This document shows, piece after piece, positions 26,020 to 47,195 of a stretch of DNA of 64,000 bases. Every line of letters begins with the position of its first letter. Position 1 is the first letter of the stretch. The notes under the pieces were generated by a model that was not told the DNA's origin, did no database searches, and saw only the letters and a program-made list of their open reading frames with translations. Source of the DNA: Denitratisoma oestradiolicum (GTDB taxonomy: Bacteria > Pseudomonadota > Gammaproteobacteria > Burkholderiales > Rhodocyclaceae); assembly GCF_902813185.1 (NCBI RefSeq), contig NZ_LR778301.1, forward strand, positions 2,542,001 through 2,606,000, in the 5' to 3' direction. The position numbers were made by a program, and so were the translations under genes.

Positions 26020-26898
26020 ATGGACTTGGCCCTGCGCATTCTTTCCATCCTCTTCCCCATGTTCGCCCTGGTGGGGATAGGCTATTTTTACGGCCGCCGC
26101 CACGAATCCGACATGTCCGTGGCCAACCGGCTCAACATGGACGTCTTCGTCCCCGCCCTGGTGTTCTCGGCCCTGGCCAACAAGGCCTTCGATCTGGCGA
26201 CTTACGGGAATCTGGCCTTGGCCATGGCCATCCAGATGCTGGGCTCCGGTGCCGTGGGCTGGGGAGTGGCCCGTCTGACCGGCATCCAGCCCCTGACCCT
26301 GGCCCCCACGGCGATGGTCAACAACAGCATCAACCTCGGCGTGCCCCTGGCAGTGCTGACTTTCGGCCCGGACATTCTGCCCCTGGCCGTGGTGCTCTTC
26401 GTGGTCTCGACCACGATCCATTTCTCCTTCGGCGTCTGGCTGCTGGATCATCATGCCAAGCTGCGCGGACTGTGGCTGAAGCCCGTGGTCCTGGCCACTA
26501 TGGCCGGCCTGGCTGTTGGCTCCATGGGCATGCCCATGTGGGAGCCCCTGGCCCTGTCGATGAAAATGCTGGGCGATATCTCCATCCCCCTGGCCCTGTT
26601 CAGCCTGGGCGTGCGCCTCACCGAAGGCGCCTTGAAGGGCTGGCGTATCGGGCTGGTGGGCGCCGTCACCCGCCCCGTGGCCGGCATGGTCCTGGCCTGG
26701 GCCGCAGCCCGGGGACTGGGGCTGGATACACGCCAGAGCGAACTGCTGTTCCTCTACGGTGCCCTGCCACCGGCGGTGATGAATTACGTATTCGCCGAGC
26801 GCTACCACCAGGAACCGGACAAGGTGGCCTCCATCGTCCTGGTGGGCAATATGGCCTCGGTGGTGTTCCTGCCCGTAGCCCTGGCGCTGGTGCTGTAG
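26020..26898 (+). CDS. AEC-family (auxin efflux carrier-like) transporter
   Basis: The 292-residue protein has about ten membrane segments with the AEC features FPMFALVGIGYFYGRR, LNMDVFVPALVFSALA and NNSINLGVPLAVLTFGP, where the broken-helix Asn/Gly motif lies, and a mirrored C-terminal half with GALPPAVMNYVFAERY. Bacterial AEC proteins export or import small organic acids such as malate or malonate. It stands alone after hslU and converges with the large sensor gene, with six bases between the stops. Substrate unknown. Confidence 0.85.
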   Translation: MDLALRILSILFPMFALVGIGYFYGRRHESDMSVANRLNMDVFVPALVFSALANKAFDLATYGNLALAMAIQMLGSGAVGWGVARLTGIQPLTLAPTAMVNNSINLGVPLAVLTFGPDILPLAVVLFVVSTTIHFSFGVWLLDHHAKLRGLWLKPVVLATMAGLAVGSMGMPMWEPLALSMKMLGDISIPLALFSLGVRLTEGALKGWRIGLVGAVTRPVAGMVLAWAAARGLGLDTRQSELLFLYGALPPAVMNYVFAERYHQEPDKVASIVLVGNMASVVFLPVALALVL

Positions 26899-26904
26899 CA
26901 GAAC

Positions 26905-29900
26905 TCAGTCGAGCAGGTTGCCGCCCACGCAAGCGGTAATGTAGGCATAACAGGTGCGAGGGTCATCGGCCAGATCCAGAAAGGAGATGGTGCGACGCTG
27001 CCAATCGCGGAAATCGGGAACATTCCGCACCAGGGAGATATCGCGCAGGGCCATACCCCAGTCCTGGAAGACCCGCCGCTGGGCTGGCCCCTCGATGACA
27101 AGGCGGACATCCTGGTGGCGTGGGTCCGTCCGGATGCGATCCATCAGCTGAGCAATTGCCTCCCGTCGCCCCTCCAGCATCTGCATGAAATAACCATCCT
27201 GATGGATCAGGCAGCCGGTAATGCCCTCCGCACGATTGCAGTTTCGCGCCTGTTTCAGCAGGCTGGCGAGATCGTCGGCCGACATGGGTGCCGTCGCCCG
27301 GCTCACATAGATCAGGAAATGGAGTGACACTTCCTCGGCGGGACTGCCAGTCCGATTCATTTCAGCATTCACCCGATCGATGAACTGTTCCATCATCAGG
27401 GGCTGGTGAAAATAGTAGCCTTGGCAATAATCGCAATGATGGGCCCGCAGTTCCATCTGCTGTTCAACATTCTCCACGCCCTCCGCCACCAACTGGAGTC
27501 CCAGTGCCCGGCCCAGGCCGGTAACGGCACGGATCACCGCCCGATTTTCCTGGCTTTTCTCAATGCCATCCACGAAAGCCCGGTCGATTTTCAGCACATT
27601 GACCGGCAGCCGGGTCAATTGGGAGAGGGACGAATAGCCGGTACCGAAGTCGTCCACCGCCAGACGCAGCCCCAGATCCGTCAGGCGACGCAACATCCGC
27701 AAATTGGCGTCCACATTCGCCATCAGGGAAGTCTCGGTGATTTCCAGCAACAGGCGGGAGGCATCGGCCCCGGTTTCCTTAAGGATGGAGACGAAATCCT
27801 CGACCAGGGACTCCTCGCCCAACTGCCGAGCCGAGAGATTCACGGAAACATAGGGAGCCGCCCCGCCCCAGCGGGAACGCCAGTTCACCTCTGTCTCGCA
27901 GGAGCGACGGAACACCCAGCTACCGATAGGCACAATGGCCCCGGTCAACTCCGCGATGGGAATGAATACTCCCGGGGACATTTCTCCTTCGGGGGGATGC
28001 CAGCGCAGCAAGACCTCGCCACCCACAATTCGGCCGCTCTCGGTCACGACAATGGGCTGGAACCGCAGCGAAAGCTCGTTGCGCTCGATGGCCAGACGCA
28101 AGCCATTGGTGATGCTCAACCGGTGCCGGGCCTTTTCCTGCAGGCTTTCGTTGAAGAACTGCCAGCCATCCCGTCCGTGCAGTTTCACCGCATACATCGC
28201 CGTATCGGCGTAACGCAGCATGTCGTCAGCGGAATGGGTGCTCCCCGTGCCGATGGCGACCCCGATGCTGGCGGTCACGAACAGGGCAGACAGCCCTTCC
28301 ACCTCGACAGGCACACGTAGGATGTCATTGATCCGGTCGGCCAGAGCTGCCACGACAGCTGGCTGCTCAAGCTGTTCACAGAGCACCACGAACTCGTCCC
28401 CCGCCAATCGGGCCACGGTGTCCCCAGGCCGCACCTGGGCGATCAGGCGATCGGCAACCGCCTTCAGCGCCATATCGCCAACGGCATGGCCATGGCTGTC
28501 ATTGATCAGCTTGAAACCATCCAGATCCACGAACAACAGGGCCACGCTCAAACCGCTACGCCGAGACCGATGCAGGGCATTGGTGAGACGTTCCCGAATC
28601 AGATCCCGATTAGGCAATCCGGTGAGCGGGTCATGGGTGGCCCGCCAGGTCAGGCTCTCTTCCGCCAGCTTGCGCTCGGTGACGTCGCGCAGGGTGGCCA
28701 CCAGCAGCCAGTCCTGTCCATTACGGAATTTGGCGATGGAAGCTTCGAGCGGGAAAAAACTCCCATCCTTGCGATAACCGGTCAGCTCACTGCGACCTGC
28801 CATGCGGCGCTCATGCTCATCCCCGGCGATAAACGCCTTGACCAGTTCTGCATGACGCTGCCGGAAATGGGGTGGCAGCAACAGGTGTATCGACATACCG
28901 AGCATTTCCTCGGGGTCGTAACCGAACATCTTGCAGGCACTGGGATTGGTCTCAGTGATAAGACCATTGGCATCAGCCGCCAGGATCGCCATGTCCGCCA
29001 GGGAAAGTATCTGCTGGGCCGTGCCGACGCGGCGCATCGCGGCCCCCACTTCTGCCGCCAGGCGGGCAGCCACCTGGGGTGATGTTTGCGATTCGTGCAT
29101 CCGCATCACCTGTATCTGGTCCTGGTAGCGTTCCGGAATGCAGGGCGGGTTTACACCAAAGTCCTCGACGATGCTGAAGGAACCATCGGCATTGCAGCGG
29201 GACAGATAGGTATGAACGCTGGCATGGTGGGTCCTGGCATCCATCTCGACCAGTCCTTGCGGTCCCCGGACTAGAACCCGCTCCAGGGCATCCACCAGGG
29301 CCTCCGCCTCCGTGGCACCGGCAGCCTCAACGGCCCGGGCAAAGGCATGAACGCAGAGGTAGGCACCCTCGCCGAAATTGGTGAGCACGCCGTTGCCTTG
29401 GGGCCAGATACCATTGATGCCCGGTTGGCGCGCCAGCCGTTCGAGATAACATCGGTTCTCTGGGGTATCCAGAGTCATGAAATAGGTATTGCTGGAATAG
29501 AAGCCCTCCCGGACATGGGGCGGCAGGCAAGCCGCCATCACCTCGTCGTAGTGCCCCATCACCACGGCCATGTGCTTCTTCAGGCCCATTTCGGTAAAGC
29601 TGTTCAACAAGGCGATCTGGTCCGCGCCAGCGAAATAAGGCACGAACACGTCGGCCCCGGAATTGCGCACCTGATGCAACAAATGCTCGATCGACTCCCT
29701 GGATGCGCCCAGGGGCAGGTACTCCTCACCAACGATATCGCCTTCCACCCTTGCCAGAGCGAGCTTGGCCGCATCCACCGAACCTCGGGGCCATTCGTAA
29801 TTATTGCCCGCGAAGAACATCTTCGGCCCGTAGCGCGCCGCCATATAGGGGATCATGCGGTCGATCTGCTGATTCGGCAGAGCAGCGAAATTAAAAAAGT

Positions 29901-30240
29901 AGCGGCCGGCGATGCTGCCTTCGTAGAAGGAAAAGTTGAGCAGGGGAATCCGCTTCGACTCCGCCACCTGTGCCGCGACGGCGATCCGCGAATTGGACAG
30001 CAGATTGCCAATGATGGCGACACATTCATGGTCGTCCACCAGACGGCAGGCGGCCGGTACCGCCGTCACCGGCAGGCTGCCATCATCCTCGACCACCAGT
30101 TCCAGCCGGCGACCGAGAATGCCGCCCTGTTCGTTGATCTCCTCGCAAGCGATCCGAGCGGCCCAGGTGATCTCCGGACCGTAGATGTCGACCAGGCCTG
30201 TCAGAGGAGGCATCAGGCCAAGTCGAATTGGATTAGTCAT
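26905..30240 (-). CDS. Ligand-binding/PAS/GGDEF/EAL/BLUF fusion, c-di-GMP turnover sensor
   Basis: This 1111-residue soluble protein joins five modules. Residues 4-375 form an ABC-type type I periplasmic-binding fold of the amide/urea group (IRLGLMPPLTGLVDIYG, EEINEQGGILGRRLELVVED) but without signal peptide or membrane helix, so it should act in the cytoplasm. Then PAS (about 405-520), GGDEF (530-695, active site AGDEF 613-617, inhibitory RPGD 604-607), EAL (705-955; EVL 742-744, NLSARQ, ITET, DDFGTGYS, KIDRAFVD, VAEGVEN) and BLUF (972-1080) with flavin-site Tyr978, Asn1002, Gln1020 and Trp1061. Both catalytic domains look active. ATG 30240 (MTNPIRLG) is chosen at the fold's edge; the frame opens 35 codons earlier. 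It is a candidate for coupling a small ligand and blue light to c-di-GMP. Confidence 0.9.
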   Translation of the reverse strand: MTNPIRLGLMPPLTGLVDIYGPEITWAARIACEEINEQGGILGRRLELVVEDDGSLPVTAVPAACRLVDDHECVAIIGNLLSNSRIAVAAQVAESKRIPLLNFSFYEGSIAGRYFFNFAALPNQQIDRMIPYMAARYGPKMFFAGNNYEWPRGSVDAAKLALARVEGDIVGEEYLPLGASRESIEHLLHQVRNSGADVFVPYFAGADQIALLNSFTEMGLKKHMAVVMGHYDEVMAACLPPHVREGFYSSNTYFMTLDTPENRCYLERLARQPGINGIWPQGNGVLTNFGEGAYLCVHAFARAVEAAGATEAEALVDALERVLVRGPQGLVEMDARTHHASVHTYLSRCNADGSFSIVEDFGVNPPCIPERYQDQIQVMRMHESQTSPQVAARLAAEVGAAMRRVGTAQQILSLADMAILAADANGLITETNPSACKMFGYDPEEMLGMSIHLLLPPHFRQRHAELVKAFIAGDEHERRMAGRSELTGYRKDGSFFPLEASIAKFRNGQDWLLVATLRDVTERKLAEESLTWRATHDPLTGLPNRDLIRERLTNALHRSRRSGLSVALLFVDLDGFKLINDSHGHAVGDMALKAVADRLIAQVRPGDTVARLAGDEFVVLCEQLEQPAVVAALADRINDILRVPVEVEGLSALFVTASIGVAIGTGSTHSADDMLRYADTAMYAVKLHGRDGWQFFNESLQEKARHRLSITNGLRLAIERNELSLRFQPIVVTESGRIVGGEVLLRWHPPEGEMSPGVFIPIAELTGAIVPIGSWVFRRSCETEVNWRSRWGGAAPYVSVNLSARQLGEESLVEDFVSILKETGADASRLLLEITETSLMANVDANLRMLRRLTDLGLRLAVDDFGTGYSSLSQLTRLPVNVLKIDRAFVDGIEKSQENRAVIRAVTGLGRALGLQLVAEGVENVEQQMELRAHHCDYCQGYYFHQPLMMEQFIDRVNAEMNRTGSPAEEVSLHFLIYVSRATAPMSADDLASLLKQARNCNRAEGITGCLIHQDGYFMQMLEGRREAIAQLMDRIRTDPRHQDVRLVIEGPAQRRVFQDWGMALRDISLVRNVPDFRDWQRRTISFLDLADDPRTCYAYITACVGGNLLD

Positions 30241-30325
30241 GAGGTATGCAGGGAGTAGTTCATGGGCGATATAACCCTGATGATTGTATAGATTATCCCT
30301 ACCCGACAACCGCCCTGGGAGCAGC

Positions 30326-31333
30326 TTAAGTCGAACGTAAAACACCGGATCTGGCTCGCAACTGACCGCAGCCCCCCTCCACGTCCTGGCCGGCGGAATG
30401 GCGCAACTTGGTCAGGATGCCGCGCCGATGGAGGCGGCGGGCCATTTCCGCCGCCTGCTCCCAGTCGGGGCGACGGAATTCGAGGCCCTCGATACGGTTG
30501 TAGGGAATCAGGTTCAGCACCGCGTACTTGCCCGTCAGCAAGCGGACGACGCCTTCCAGCTCGTCCTCACCGTCGTTGATTCCCGCCAGCAGCGTCCATT
30601 GATACTGGATCGGATAGCCGGTATGGCGGGCGTAGTCCTCGGCCAGATCCACCAGCTCGGCCGGTTCCATCGGCGGGGCCTTGGGCAGCAAGCGGCGCCG
30701 CAGTTCGGAATTTGTGGTATGCAGGGACAAGGCCAGGGCCGGCTTCACCACGCCCCGGGGCAGGCGCTCGAAGACACGACGATCGCCCACGGTGGAGAAG
30801 ACCAGATTCTTGTGGCCGATGGCTCCCTCGGTACCCAGCAATTCGATGGCTTCAAGCACATTGTCCATGTTGTGGGCCGGCTCCCCCATGCCCATGAACA
30901 CCACCTTGCTGACAGGCCGCCGGGAGCGGGCCAGCACCACCTGGGCGATGATTTCCGCGCTGCCCAGTTGCCGCAGCAGTCCATCCCGACCGGTCATGCA
31001 GAACACACAACCCACCGCGCAACCCACCTGGGTCGAGACACAAAGCCCGCCCTTGGGCAGCAGTACGCTCTCCACCGTCTGGCCGTCAGCGAGCCCGATC
31101 AGCAGACGGGAACCATCCTCTCCCGGGTGCTCGGAACGCAGGCGGGCCAGGCCCTCCAGTTCCAGGGCCAGATCGGGCAGCGCCTGGCGCAAGGCCAGGG
31201 GAAAGAATTGTTCGGAGCGGTGGGCACTACCGTCCAGAGGGAGGCGTTGCAGCCATGAGCGGAGCAGCACCTGCTCATGGCAGGCCTTGGCACCCAGAGC
31301 CCGCAGGCGCTGGCGGAGATGTTCGATGCGCAT
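30326..31333 (-). CDS. RlmN-like radical SAM RNA methyltransferase (paralogue)
   Basis: The 335-residue protein has the radical SAM cluster motif Cys105-x3-Cys109-x2-Cys112 preceded by Cys98 in LCVSTQVGC, and a C-terminal Cys322 in EGGCGQL; these match the RlmN residues that form the cluster and the covalent RNA intermediate. MGMGEPAHNMDNVLEAI is the family's GEP motif. RlmN methylates C2 of A2503 in 23S rRNA and A37 of some tRNAs. The gene is isolated from the ndk/pilF/ispG context usual for betaproteobacterial rlmN and is about 45 residues shorter than E. coli RlmN, so a paralogue is more likely than the housekeeping copy. Confidence 0.85.
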   Translation of the reverse strand: MRIEHLRQRLRALGAKACHEQVLLRSWLQRLPLDGSAHRSEQFFPLALRQALPDLALELEGLARLRSEHPGEDGSRLLIGLADGQTVESVLLPKGGLCVSTQVGCAVGCVFCMTGRDGLLRQLGSAEIIAQVVLARSRRPVSKVVFMGMGEPAHNMDNVLEAIELLGTEGAIGHKNLVFSTVGDRRVFERLPRGVVKPALALSLHTTNSELRRRLLPKAPPMEPAELVDLAEDYARHTGYPIQYQWTLLAGINDGEDELEGVVRLLTGKYAVLNLIPYNRIEGLEFRRPDWEQAAEMARRLHRRGILTKLRHSAGQDVEGGCGQLRARSGVLRST

Positions 31334-46151: not shown

Positions 46152-47195
46152 CTAACGGACCACCTGATTGCGTCCCAGACTCTTGGCCTGATACAGATTG
46201 CGGTCGGCACCGGACATCAGGGCATCAAGGGTACGCCCTTCTTCCGGATAGACGGCGCAGCCGATGCTGACCGTGGTGTGAATGGTGTTGCCGCCTGCGT
46301 GCATTTGGTCCACTGCCCGGCGAATTCTCTCGGCGACATCCAGGGCACCGGCAGCGGTGGTTTCCGGGAGAAGGACAACGAACTCGTCTCCCCCGTGACG
46401 GGCCAACACGTCGGTGTAGCGCAACTGTCCCTGAATGCTTTTCACCAGGTCCTTCAGCAGGACATCGCCGGCCTTGTGTCCGAAGTCGTCGTTCACCTGT
46501 TTCAGGTTGTCACAGTCGATCATGAGGATGGACAGTGCCCGGTTGTAGCGTACCGCCTGGCCGAACAAGCGATCGGCCAGGATGGCAAACCCGCGCCGGT
46601 TGAGAATTCCCGTGAGATCGTCACTCTCCGACATCAGCTTTGCCTTGTTGAGACCATAGCGGATATCCGAGGAAAACATGGTGGTGATGTACGCCACCAG
46701 GATGAAGGGTGCGAATTCGGCCAGAACACCGCCGAGACTGCTAAGGGATGTCAACTCGCCAATGGAGTCATAGTCACCGAGCAGCACGAAGCAGGTGGCG
46801 ATCAGCGCAAGTTCCAGCAGGGTGGTGATCTTCCCCAGCGTCAGAGCACTGGTGATGATCACCAGCAGGTAGGAGTTGATCAATGGACTGTCAAGCTTGC
46901 CGGTGTGCCATAGCGACCAGGTGACGAAAGCCGTCATGATCCAGGTCTCCACGGCGACCTTCCAGCGGGATTCGCGCTTGAAGAAATGGGTGTAGCGGAA
47001 CCCCATGATGCATGCCGTATAGGCCAGCAGCCCGGATACGATCGCCGCCTTGTCCTCCGGGTGTCCGCCCCCGAATGCGTAATAAAGCAGTACCAGAACC
47101 AGCAGCAGCCATTCGATCTCGGCCACCGTGCGCGAGATGCCGCGCAGTTCCTCCTGCTCCAGGGAAACGGCATTTGAATCGACAGTGTCCGACAT
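46152..47195 (-). CDS. Membrane-bound diguanylate cyclase
   Basis: The 347-residue protein has about six membrane segments (residues 25-170) and a cytoplasmic GGDEF domain (about 185-345). The active site HGGDEF and the inhibitory site RYTD, five residues upstream, are intact, so it should make c-di-GMP and be feedback-regulated. The membrane part is not a named sensor domain I recognise. It stands alone; AGGGAG precedes the ATG at a slightly long distance. It is a second c-di-GMP enzyme in the window, besides the BLUF fusion at 26905-30240. Confidence 0.9.
   Translation of the reverse strand: MSDTVDSNAVSLEQEELRGISRTVAEIEWLLLVLVLLYYAFGGGHPEDKAAIVSGLLAYTACIMGFRYTHFFKRESRWKVAVETWIMTAFVTWSLWHTGKLDSPLINSYLLVIITSALTLGKITTLLELALIATCFVLLGDYDSIGELTSLSSLGGVLAEFAPFILVAYITTMFSSDIRYGLNKAKLMSESDDLTGILNRRGFAILADRLFGQAVRYNRALSILMIDCDNLKQVNDDFGHKAGDVLLKDLVKSIQGQLRYTDVLARHGGDEFVVLLPETTAAGALDVAERIRRAVDQMHAGGNTIHTTVSIGCAVYPEEGRTLDALMSGADRNLYQAKSLGRNQVVR

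Follow-up and report, generated by a model that had tools for sequence, protein, structure and literature searches.

We analyzed a 64,000-nucleotide stretch of the genome of Denitratisoma oestradiolicum (contig NZ_LR778301.1, positions 2,542,001 to 2,606,000; hereafter the window), which contains at 26905-30240 a gene for a predicted multidomain enzyme of cyclic di-GMP (c-di-GMP) signalling. The gene is a single open frame of 1111 codons on the minus strand, starting with MTNPIRLGL; reading the plus strand across the same interval gave four stops. An earlier note on this DNA, made from the letters alone, had placed the gene here without giving a strand and had read from it a periplasmic-binding-type receptor followed by PAS, GGDEF, EAL and BLUF domains. 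Both the extent of the gene and the order of its domains were borne out, with Pfam matches to Peripla_BP_6, PAS, GGDEF, EAL and BLUF that all exceeded their curated cut-offs. Relatives in other species aligned across residues 1-1109, and receptor and BLUF were found together within single open frames of these relatives, as expected of the one uninterrupted polypeptide that the note had described. An assembly fusion or frameshift joining two genes was ruled out by the full-length relatives in many genomes.

The receptor matched Peripla_BP_6 at residues 4-353 with 225.7 bits, and a VIA-align comparison revealed the type-I fold of AmiC and UrtA. The export signal expected of the binding protein of an ABC transporter was missing. 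In particular, hydropathy, which was used here in place of a dedicated signal-peptide program, revealed no signal peptide or membrane helix; the highest 19-residue mean was 1.66, against a control value of 2.34 for the neighbouring permease. In the relatives, no strongly hydrophobic segment preceded the shared motif IRLGLMPPLTG (highest 18-residue means of 0.7 to 1.6). The receptor without signal peptide or membrane helix that the note had proposed was thus upheld, and export or membrane anchoring of the protein was rejected on hydropathy. Among 61 full-length rows, the receptor was the most conserved domain, with a mean pairwise identity of 0.735 versus 0.712 for GGDEF, 0.713 for EAL, 0.605 for PAS and 0.506 for BLUF, a comparison biased by the many rows that came from a search with the receptor as query.

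Each mapped pocket position was identical in at least 32 of the 33 receptors aligned, histidine-kinase fusions included. Upon alignment with UrtA, which was less sure near residue 230 owing to a gap, we found S122 and Y190 of UrtA to be kept as S82 and Y148. The other two urea contacts are replaced, Q144 by F105 in 33/33 receptors and N246 by A204 in 32/33, and UrtA W120 corresponds to L80 in 33/33. In UrtA, mutation of Q144 or N246 is described as strongly lowering or abolishing urea binding, and W120 as being also needed (PMC10392092). Because two of the four residues that hydrogen-bond urea in UrtA are absent from the near-invariant pocket, urea appears to be an unlikely ligand, although other short amides may bind; of the amide/urea-type receptor first proposed, the fold stood and the urea ligand did not.

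The output domains scored 145.5 bits (GGDEF) and 232.3 bits (EAL). The GGDEF domain carries an AGDEF motif and an RPGD inhibitory site; some relatives differ at its positions D581 and G614, and the domain may either make c-di-GMP or only bind GTP. The EAL residue set, which we take to bind metal and substrate, is complete (Q728, E742, N801, E833, E836, D863, D864, K884, E920 and Q940), as the note had claimed, and the ten positions were conserved in 76/76. The BLUF domain scored 106.2 bits against a cut-off of 25 and contains Y978, N1002, Q1020, W1061 and M1063, presumably the residues of the flavin switch; the first four, like the AGDEF and RPGD motifs, lie where the note had placed them. In members over 1080 residues, Tyr was conserved in 92/93, Asn in 93/93, Gln in 93/93 and Trp in 92/93, and Met in 82/93 with Leu in the other 11. 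The protein is expected to be a light-stimulated phosphodiesterase.

A C-terminal BLUF domain was also observed on bacteriophytochrome-type histidine kinases, both in P0125 and P0133 (Pfam PAS_2-GAF-PHY-HisKA_3-HATPase) and, by precomputed domains, in P0124, P0130-P0132, P0134 and P0143. These BLUF domains are 57-64% identical to the BLUF part of the window protein, and the kinases are possible red/blue dual photoreceptors.

The PAS domain matched Pfam PAS (residues 409-520) and PAS_9 (419-522) with about 55 bits each. Its best match in the Protein Data Bank (PDB) was the heme-PAS of FixL (E 1.1e-14), followed by one further kinase and then the heme-PAS of DosP. H463 aligned with the FixL His that we take to be the proximal heme ligand. 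R483 sits 20 residues past H463. The distal Arg of the FixL/DosP heme-PAS is presumably an oxygen contact, but owing to an extra residue HMMER pairs the FixL Arg with a residue neighbouring R483. In the protein-search set, His was present at the H463 position in 162/162 ungapped PAS domains of receptor-bearing proteins (3 gapped), made up of 125/125 in five-domain proteins (3 gapped) and 37/37 in receptor proteins without BLUF, and in 8/10 ungapped PAS domains of BLUF proteins without the receptor (3 gapped). In the locus set, it was present in 61/80 rows, with 9 gapped and the other misses chiefly in rows L071-L089; the second PAS of L080 also has it. None of 18 domain rows (4 gapped) from nine other c-di-GMP loci of the same genome had it. 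The conserved His suggests heme, short of proof. Since its nearest matches are the FixL and DosP heme-PAS domains, the PAS may add oxygen or a different gas to the inputs.

The earlier note had regarded the receptor at the front as unusual, and this part of it did not survive. A protein search with residues 1-375 against long proteins only scored 7999 candidates and returned 826 matches; among the 120 matches listed, the window protein included, the architecture search found all five domains in 84, and 36 were without BLUF, some of them perhaps incomplete. A scan of named genomes yielded 79 loci, which were reduced to 76 receptor proteins after exclusion of L036, L066 and L067 (no frame with a near-complete receptor). 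Five domains were present in 44/76, and 18/76 had another or incomplete rear part. Among these 18, Pfam confirmed eight receptor histidine kinases (L071, L072, L073, L075, L076, L079, L082 and L089); L065 has the receptor with a GGDEF match and no EAL in Pfam, L083 and L084 are truncated, and L022 has just a short frame. The five-domain order is therefore established and not a one-off fusion. Its hosts span several proteobacterial classes, Desulfamplus and a Nitrospirae bin, and include Sulfuritalea, Azonexus, Simplicispira, Gallionella, Sideroxydans, methanotrophs, Ectothiorhodospira, Magnetospirillum and a Magnetococcales bin (L047). The receptor was present in 9/150 genomes of the family and 18/398 sampled from the phylum (the window's own genome included in both) and in 0/2 congeners, a patchy occurrence as for a transferred or often-lost gene.

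On a tree of 82 GGDEF-EAL rows, built by a quick method with support from the SH-like approximate likelihood ratio test (SH-aLRT), BLUF presence changed 9 times and receptor presence 3 times; these counts are approximate, given that L058 is truncated at the end of its contig and that P0141 and P0147 may lack part of the N-terminus. Most PAS-GGDEF-EAL-BLUF proteins without the receptor fell into a single group with weak support (SH-aLRT 80) within the receptor-bearing tree. Such receptor-less BLUF proteins (P0127-P0129, P0137-P0140, P0163 and others) mostly keep the PAS His.

The receptor also fronts histidine kinases from several phyla (L071, L072, L073, L075, L076 and L089), some with extra PAS and GAF domains. 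In three Magnetococcales loci, an HD-GYP response regulator directly follows the receptor-PAS protein (L079:7089-8168, L082:5347-6525 and L087:11233-12300); Pfam identified a histidine kinase in L079 and L082, and the receptor-PAS protein of L087 lay outside the Pfam scan. These HD-GYP regulators may give the same receptor another path to c-di-GMP.

The positions of the features are collected in Table 1. Upstream of the gene, a GTG in frame at 30345 would, if used as the start, lengthen the protein by 35 residues, and no clear ribosome-binding site was seen in the 85-bp stretch before the ATG. The upstream radical-SAM gene is presumably RlmN-like. Downstream lies a convergent membrane transport gene (26020-26898, plus strand), with 6 bp between the gene ends. 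When 887 open reading frames (ORFs) around the relatives (L011-L089) were clustered, with crude ORF calling and annotation for a minority of neighbours, no conserved partner gene was found beyond signalling proteins and the synteny of close relatives. No search was aimed at an adjoining urea or amide transporter; one distant binding-protein match surfaced in L016 (26% identity). The genome encodes a single BLUF domain; some part of the protein is matched at 54 places there, almost always within the PAS, GGDEF or EAL parts. A second GGDEF protein of 347 residues is present in the window (46152-47195, minus strand; Pfam GGDEF 146.8 bits), and an in-frame TGA occurs in each of two GGDEF/EAL-like stretches of the genome (G000:C1:283159-284742 and G000:C1:201163-201819), which are either pseudogenes or sequence errors.

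Table 1. Features of the five-domain gene and its upstream gap, in window positions.
Feature	Residues	Position	Strand	Basis
Whole gene, PBP (periplasmic-binding protein)-PAS-GGDEF-EAL-BLUF, 1111 aa		26905..30240	-	Open frame, Pfam, full-length relatives
Type-I periplasmic-binding (AmiC/UrtA-like) domain without signal peptide	4-372	29125..30231	-	
PAS domain, FixL/DosP-like	409-524	28669..29016	-	Pfam, PDB sequence search
FixL heme-ligand His position in HMMER alignment	H463	28852..28854	-	
GGDEF (diguanylate cyclase) domain	534-691	28168..28641	-	Pfam
RPGD inhibitory-site motif	604-607	28420..28431	-	
AGDEF active-site motif	613-617	28390..28404	-	
EAL phosphodiesterase domain	714-947	27400..28101	-	Pfam
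BLUF domain	973-1064	27049..27324	-	Pfam, residue alignment
Segment after BLUF, probable helical cap	1065-1105	26926..27048	-	Position, conservation
85-bp gap between co-directional radical-SAM gene (30326-31333) and ATG		30241..30325	-	

We consider it fairly probable (roughly 0.6) that the gene encodes a soluble cytosolic c-di-GMP phosphodiesterase/cyclase of the BldP type that integrates a metabolite, blue light and perhaps oxygen; the metabolite-plus-light enzyme first predicted remains reasonable on sequence grounds. Such an enzyme would be cytoplasmic and probably dimeric. Blue light would act on a flavin presumably bound by the C-terminal BLUF domain and would raise the EAL phosphodiesterase activity, a small intracellular metabolite would close the N-terminal Venus-flytrap domain, and receptor closure, together with the state of the PAS domain (which may carry heme and respond to oxygen), would set the GGDEF-EAL output. 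A bolder version is put forward as less likely than not: a three-input gate in one protein, in which a cytosolic receptor of a new sensor class would detect a widely shared metabolite, a heme-PAS would detect oxygen, and a BLUF domain blue light, all acting on one GGDEF-EAL pair. As the receptor also sits on histidine kinases next to HD-GYP response regulators, its metabolite would converge on c-di-GMP by two routes. If true, this gate would allow bacteria that live along gradients of light and redox to decide between attaching and moving. Several points weigh against the integrating enzyme. The BLUF match was missing from 14/58 receptor-GGDEF-EAL locus proteins (L058 among them being cut by a contig end), which makes light an input that can be dispensed with. 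Other GGDEF-EAL proteins likewise had His at the FixL position in 5/40 ungapped PAS domains (27 gapped), a Tyr replaced it in L053, a receptor-GGDEF-EAL protein of Nitrosomonas, and upon inspection the stretch from the His to KDG was one residue longer than in FixL. Binding of chromophore, heme and ligand is predicted, and the analogy with BldP rests on congeners of its host, not on the BldP sequence.

A simpler view is that the protein is only a blue-light phosphodiesterase, its receptor and PAS domain being structural or vestigial and sensing nothing. This would agree with BldP, which is reported as a light-activated phosphodiesterase (PMC8846402), and with the group of PAS-GGDEF-EAL-BLUF proteins without the receptor. 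We nevertheless find it improbable, as the receptor is conserved above BLUF (with the search bias given above), its pocket is common to proteins with quite different outputs, and the tree showed more changes in BLUF presence than in receptor presence. The proposal of a receptor for urea or a short amide, linking nitrogen status to light, draws on the AmiC/UrtA-like fold; with UrtA Q144, N246 and W120 all replaced, we rate it as very unlikely. It is an even question whether the PAS domain binds flavin adenine dinucleotide (FAD) or nothing, in which case only light and metabolite would be sensed and the rest of the integrating mechanism would stand. Some PAS domains of c-di-GMP enzymes are given as FAD-binding in Table 3 of PMC8846402, and the His is shared by some unrelated PAS domains, as noted; on the other side, the best PDB matches are heme-PAS domains, and the His is kept in the GGDEF-EAL branch and absent at the aligned place in the post-receptor PAS of L071-L089.

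A review of c-di-GMP sensing, PMC8846402, describes SBP_bac_3 as the only member of its periplasmic-binding clan studied in c-di-GMP networks, lists Periplas_BP as a putative sensor without known function and calls domains of this clan periplasmic. The five-domain family instead has a near-invariant type-I receptor in the cytosol, fused directly to c-di-GMP enzymes. Its ligand, once found, would name a metabolite coupled to c-di-GMP in unrelated bacteria, and the fixed pocket makes the ligand question directly testable. What this analysis adds is the conserved cytosolic receptor common to soluble histidine kinases, and the candidate heme-PAS; the architecture itself is widespread. No description of the receptor-BLUF order was found in the open literature searched, a scope that left aside subscription papers and supplementary tables, including the domain tables of PMC8846402, and the literature search found nothing relevant on cytoplasmic AmiC-type kinases.

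Compared with known systems, the receptor shares its fold with AmiC of Pseudomonas aeruginosa (23% identity) and the urea-binding UrtA proteins (26% identity). AmiC, however, works on AmiR as a stand-alone protein, and UrtA is a transporter component with two essential urea contacts that are missing here. DosP (PdeO) of E. coli and AxPDEA1, described as heme-PAS phosphodiesterases (PMC8846402), have PAS, GGDEF and EAL parts in common with the window protein, and DosP matched in the PAS and catalytic parts; both lack the receptor and BLUF, and the window protein missed the NCBIfam DosP cut-off (365 versus 857 bits). In BlrP1 of Klebsiella pneumoniae, BLUF also controls an EAL phosphodiesterase, and both domains matched in the PDB search; its BLUF is N-terminal (range 11-108 of 413), whereas that of the window protein is C-terminal, and PMC8846402 describes it as linked to EAL only. 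A BLUF-GGDEF/EAL protein of Methylomicrobium alcaliphilum was named in a 2014 census (PMC4844311). By description, it has the same output and photosensor, and the census passage mentions no receptor domain; we found all five domains in L027 and L030 (Methylomicrobium sp. wino1 and Methylotuvimicrobium buryatense). Likeness also extends to BldP, a blue-light-activated BLUF phosphodiesterase that PMC8846402 records for Allochromatium vinosum and Magnetococcus marinus. A search with residues 1000-1216 of a Marichromatium protein revealed five-domain proteins in Allochromatium palmeri and A. tepidum, which group with other Chromatiaceae proteins on the GGDEF-EAL tree, and the Magnetococcales bin L047 carries the five domains as well. 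Since two Allochromatium species have the five-domain protein, A. vinosum BldP is very probably a relative and presumably has the same architecture, and the light response of the family has probably already been studied. BldP, the subject of Ryu et al. (2017), is reported to have C-terminal EAL-BLUF modules and a light activation that depends on oxygen, a dependence for which the PAS His could account.
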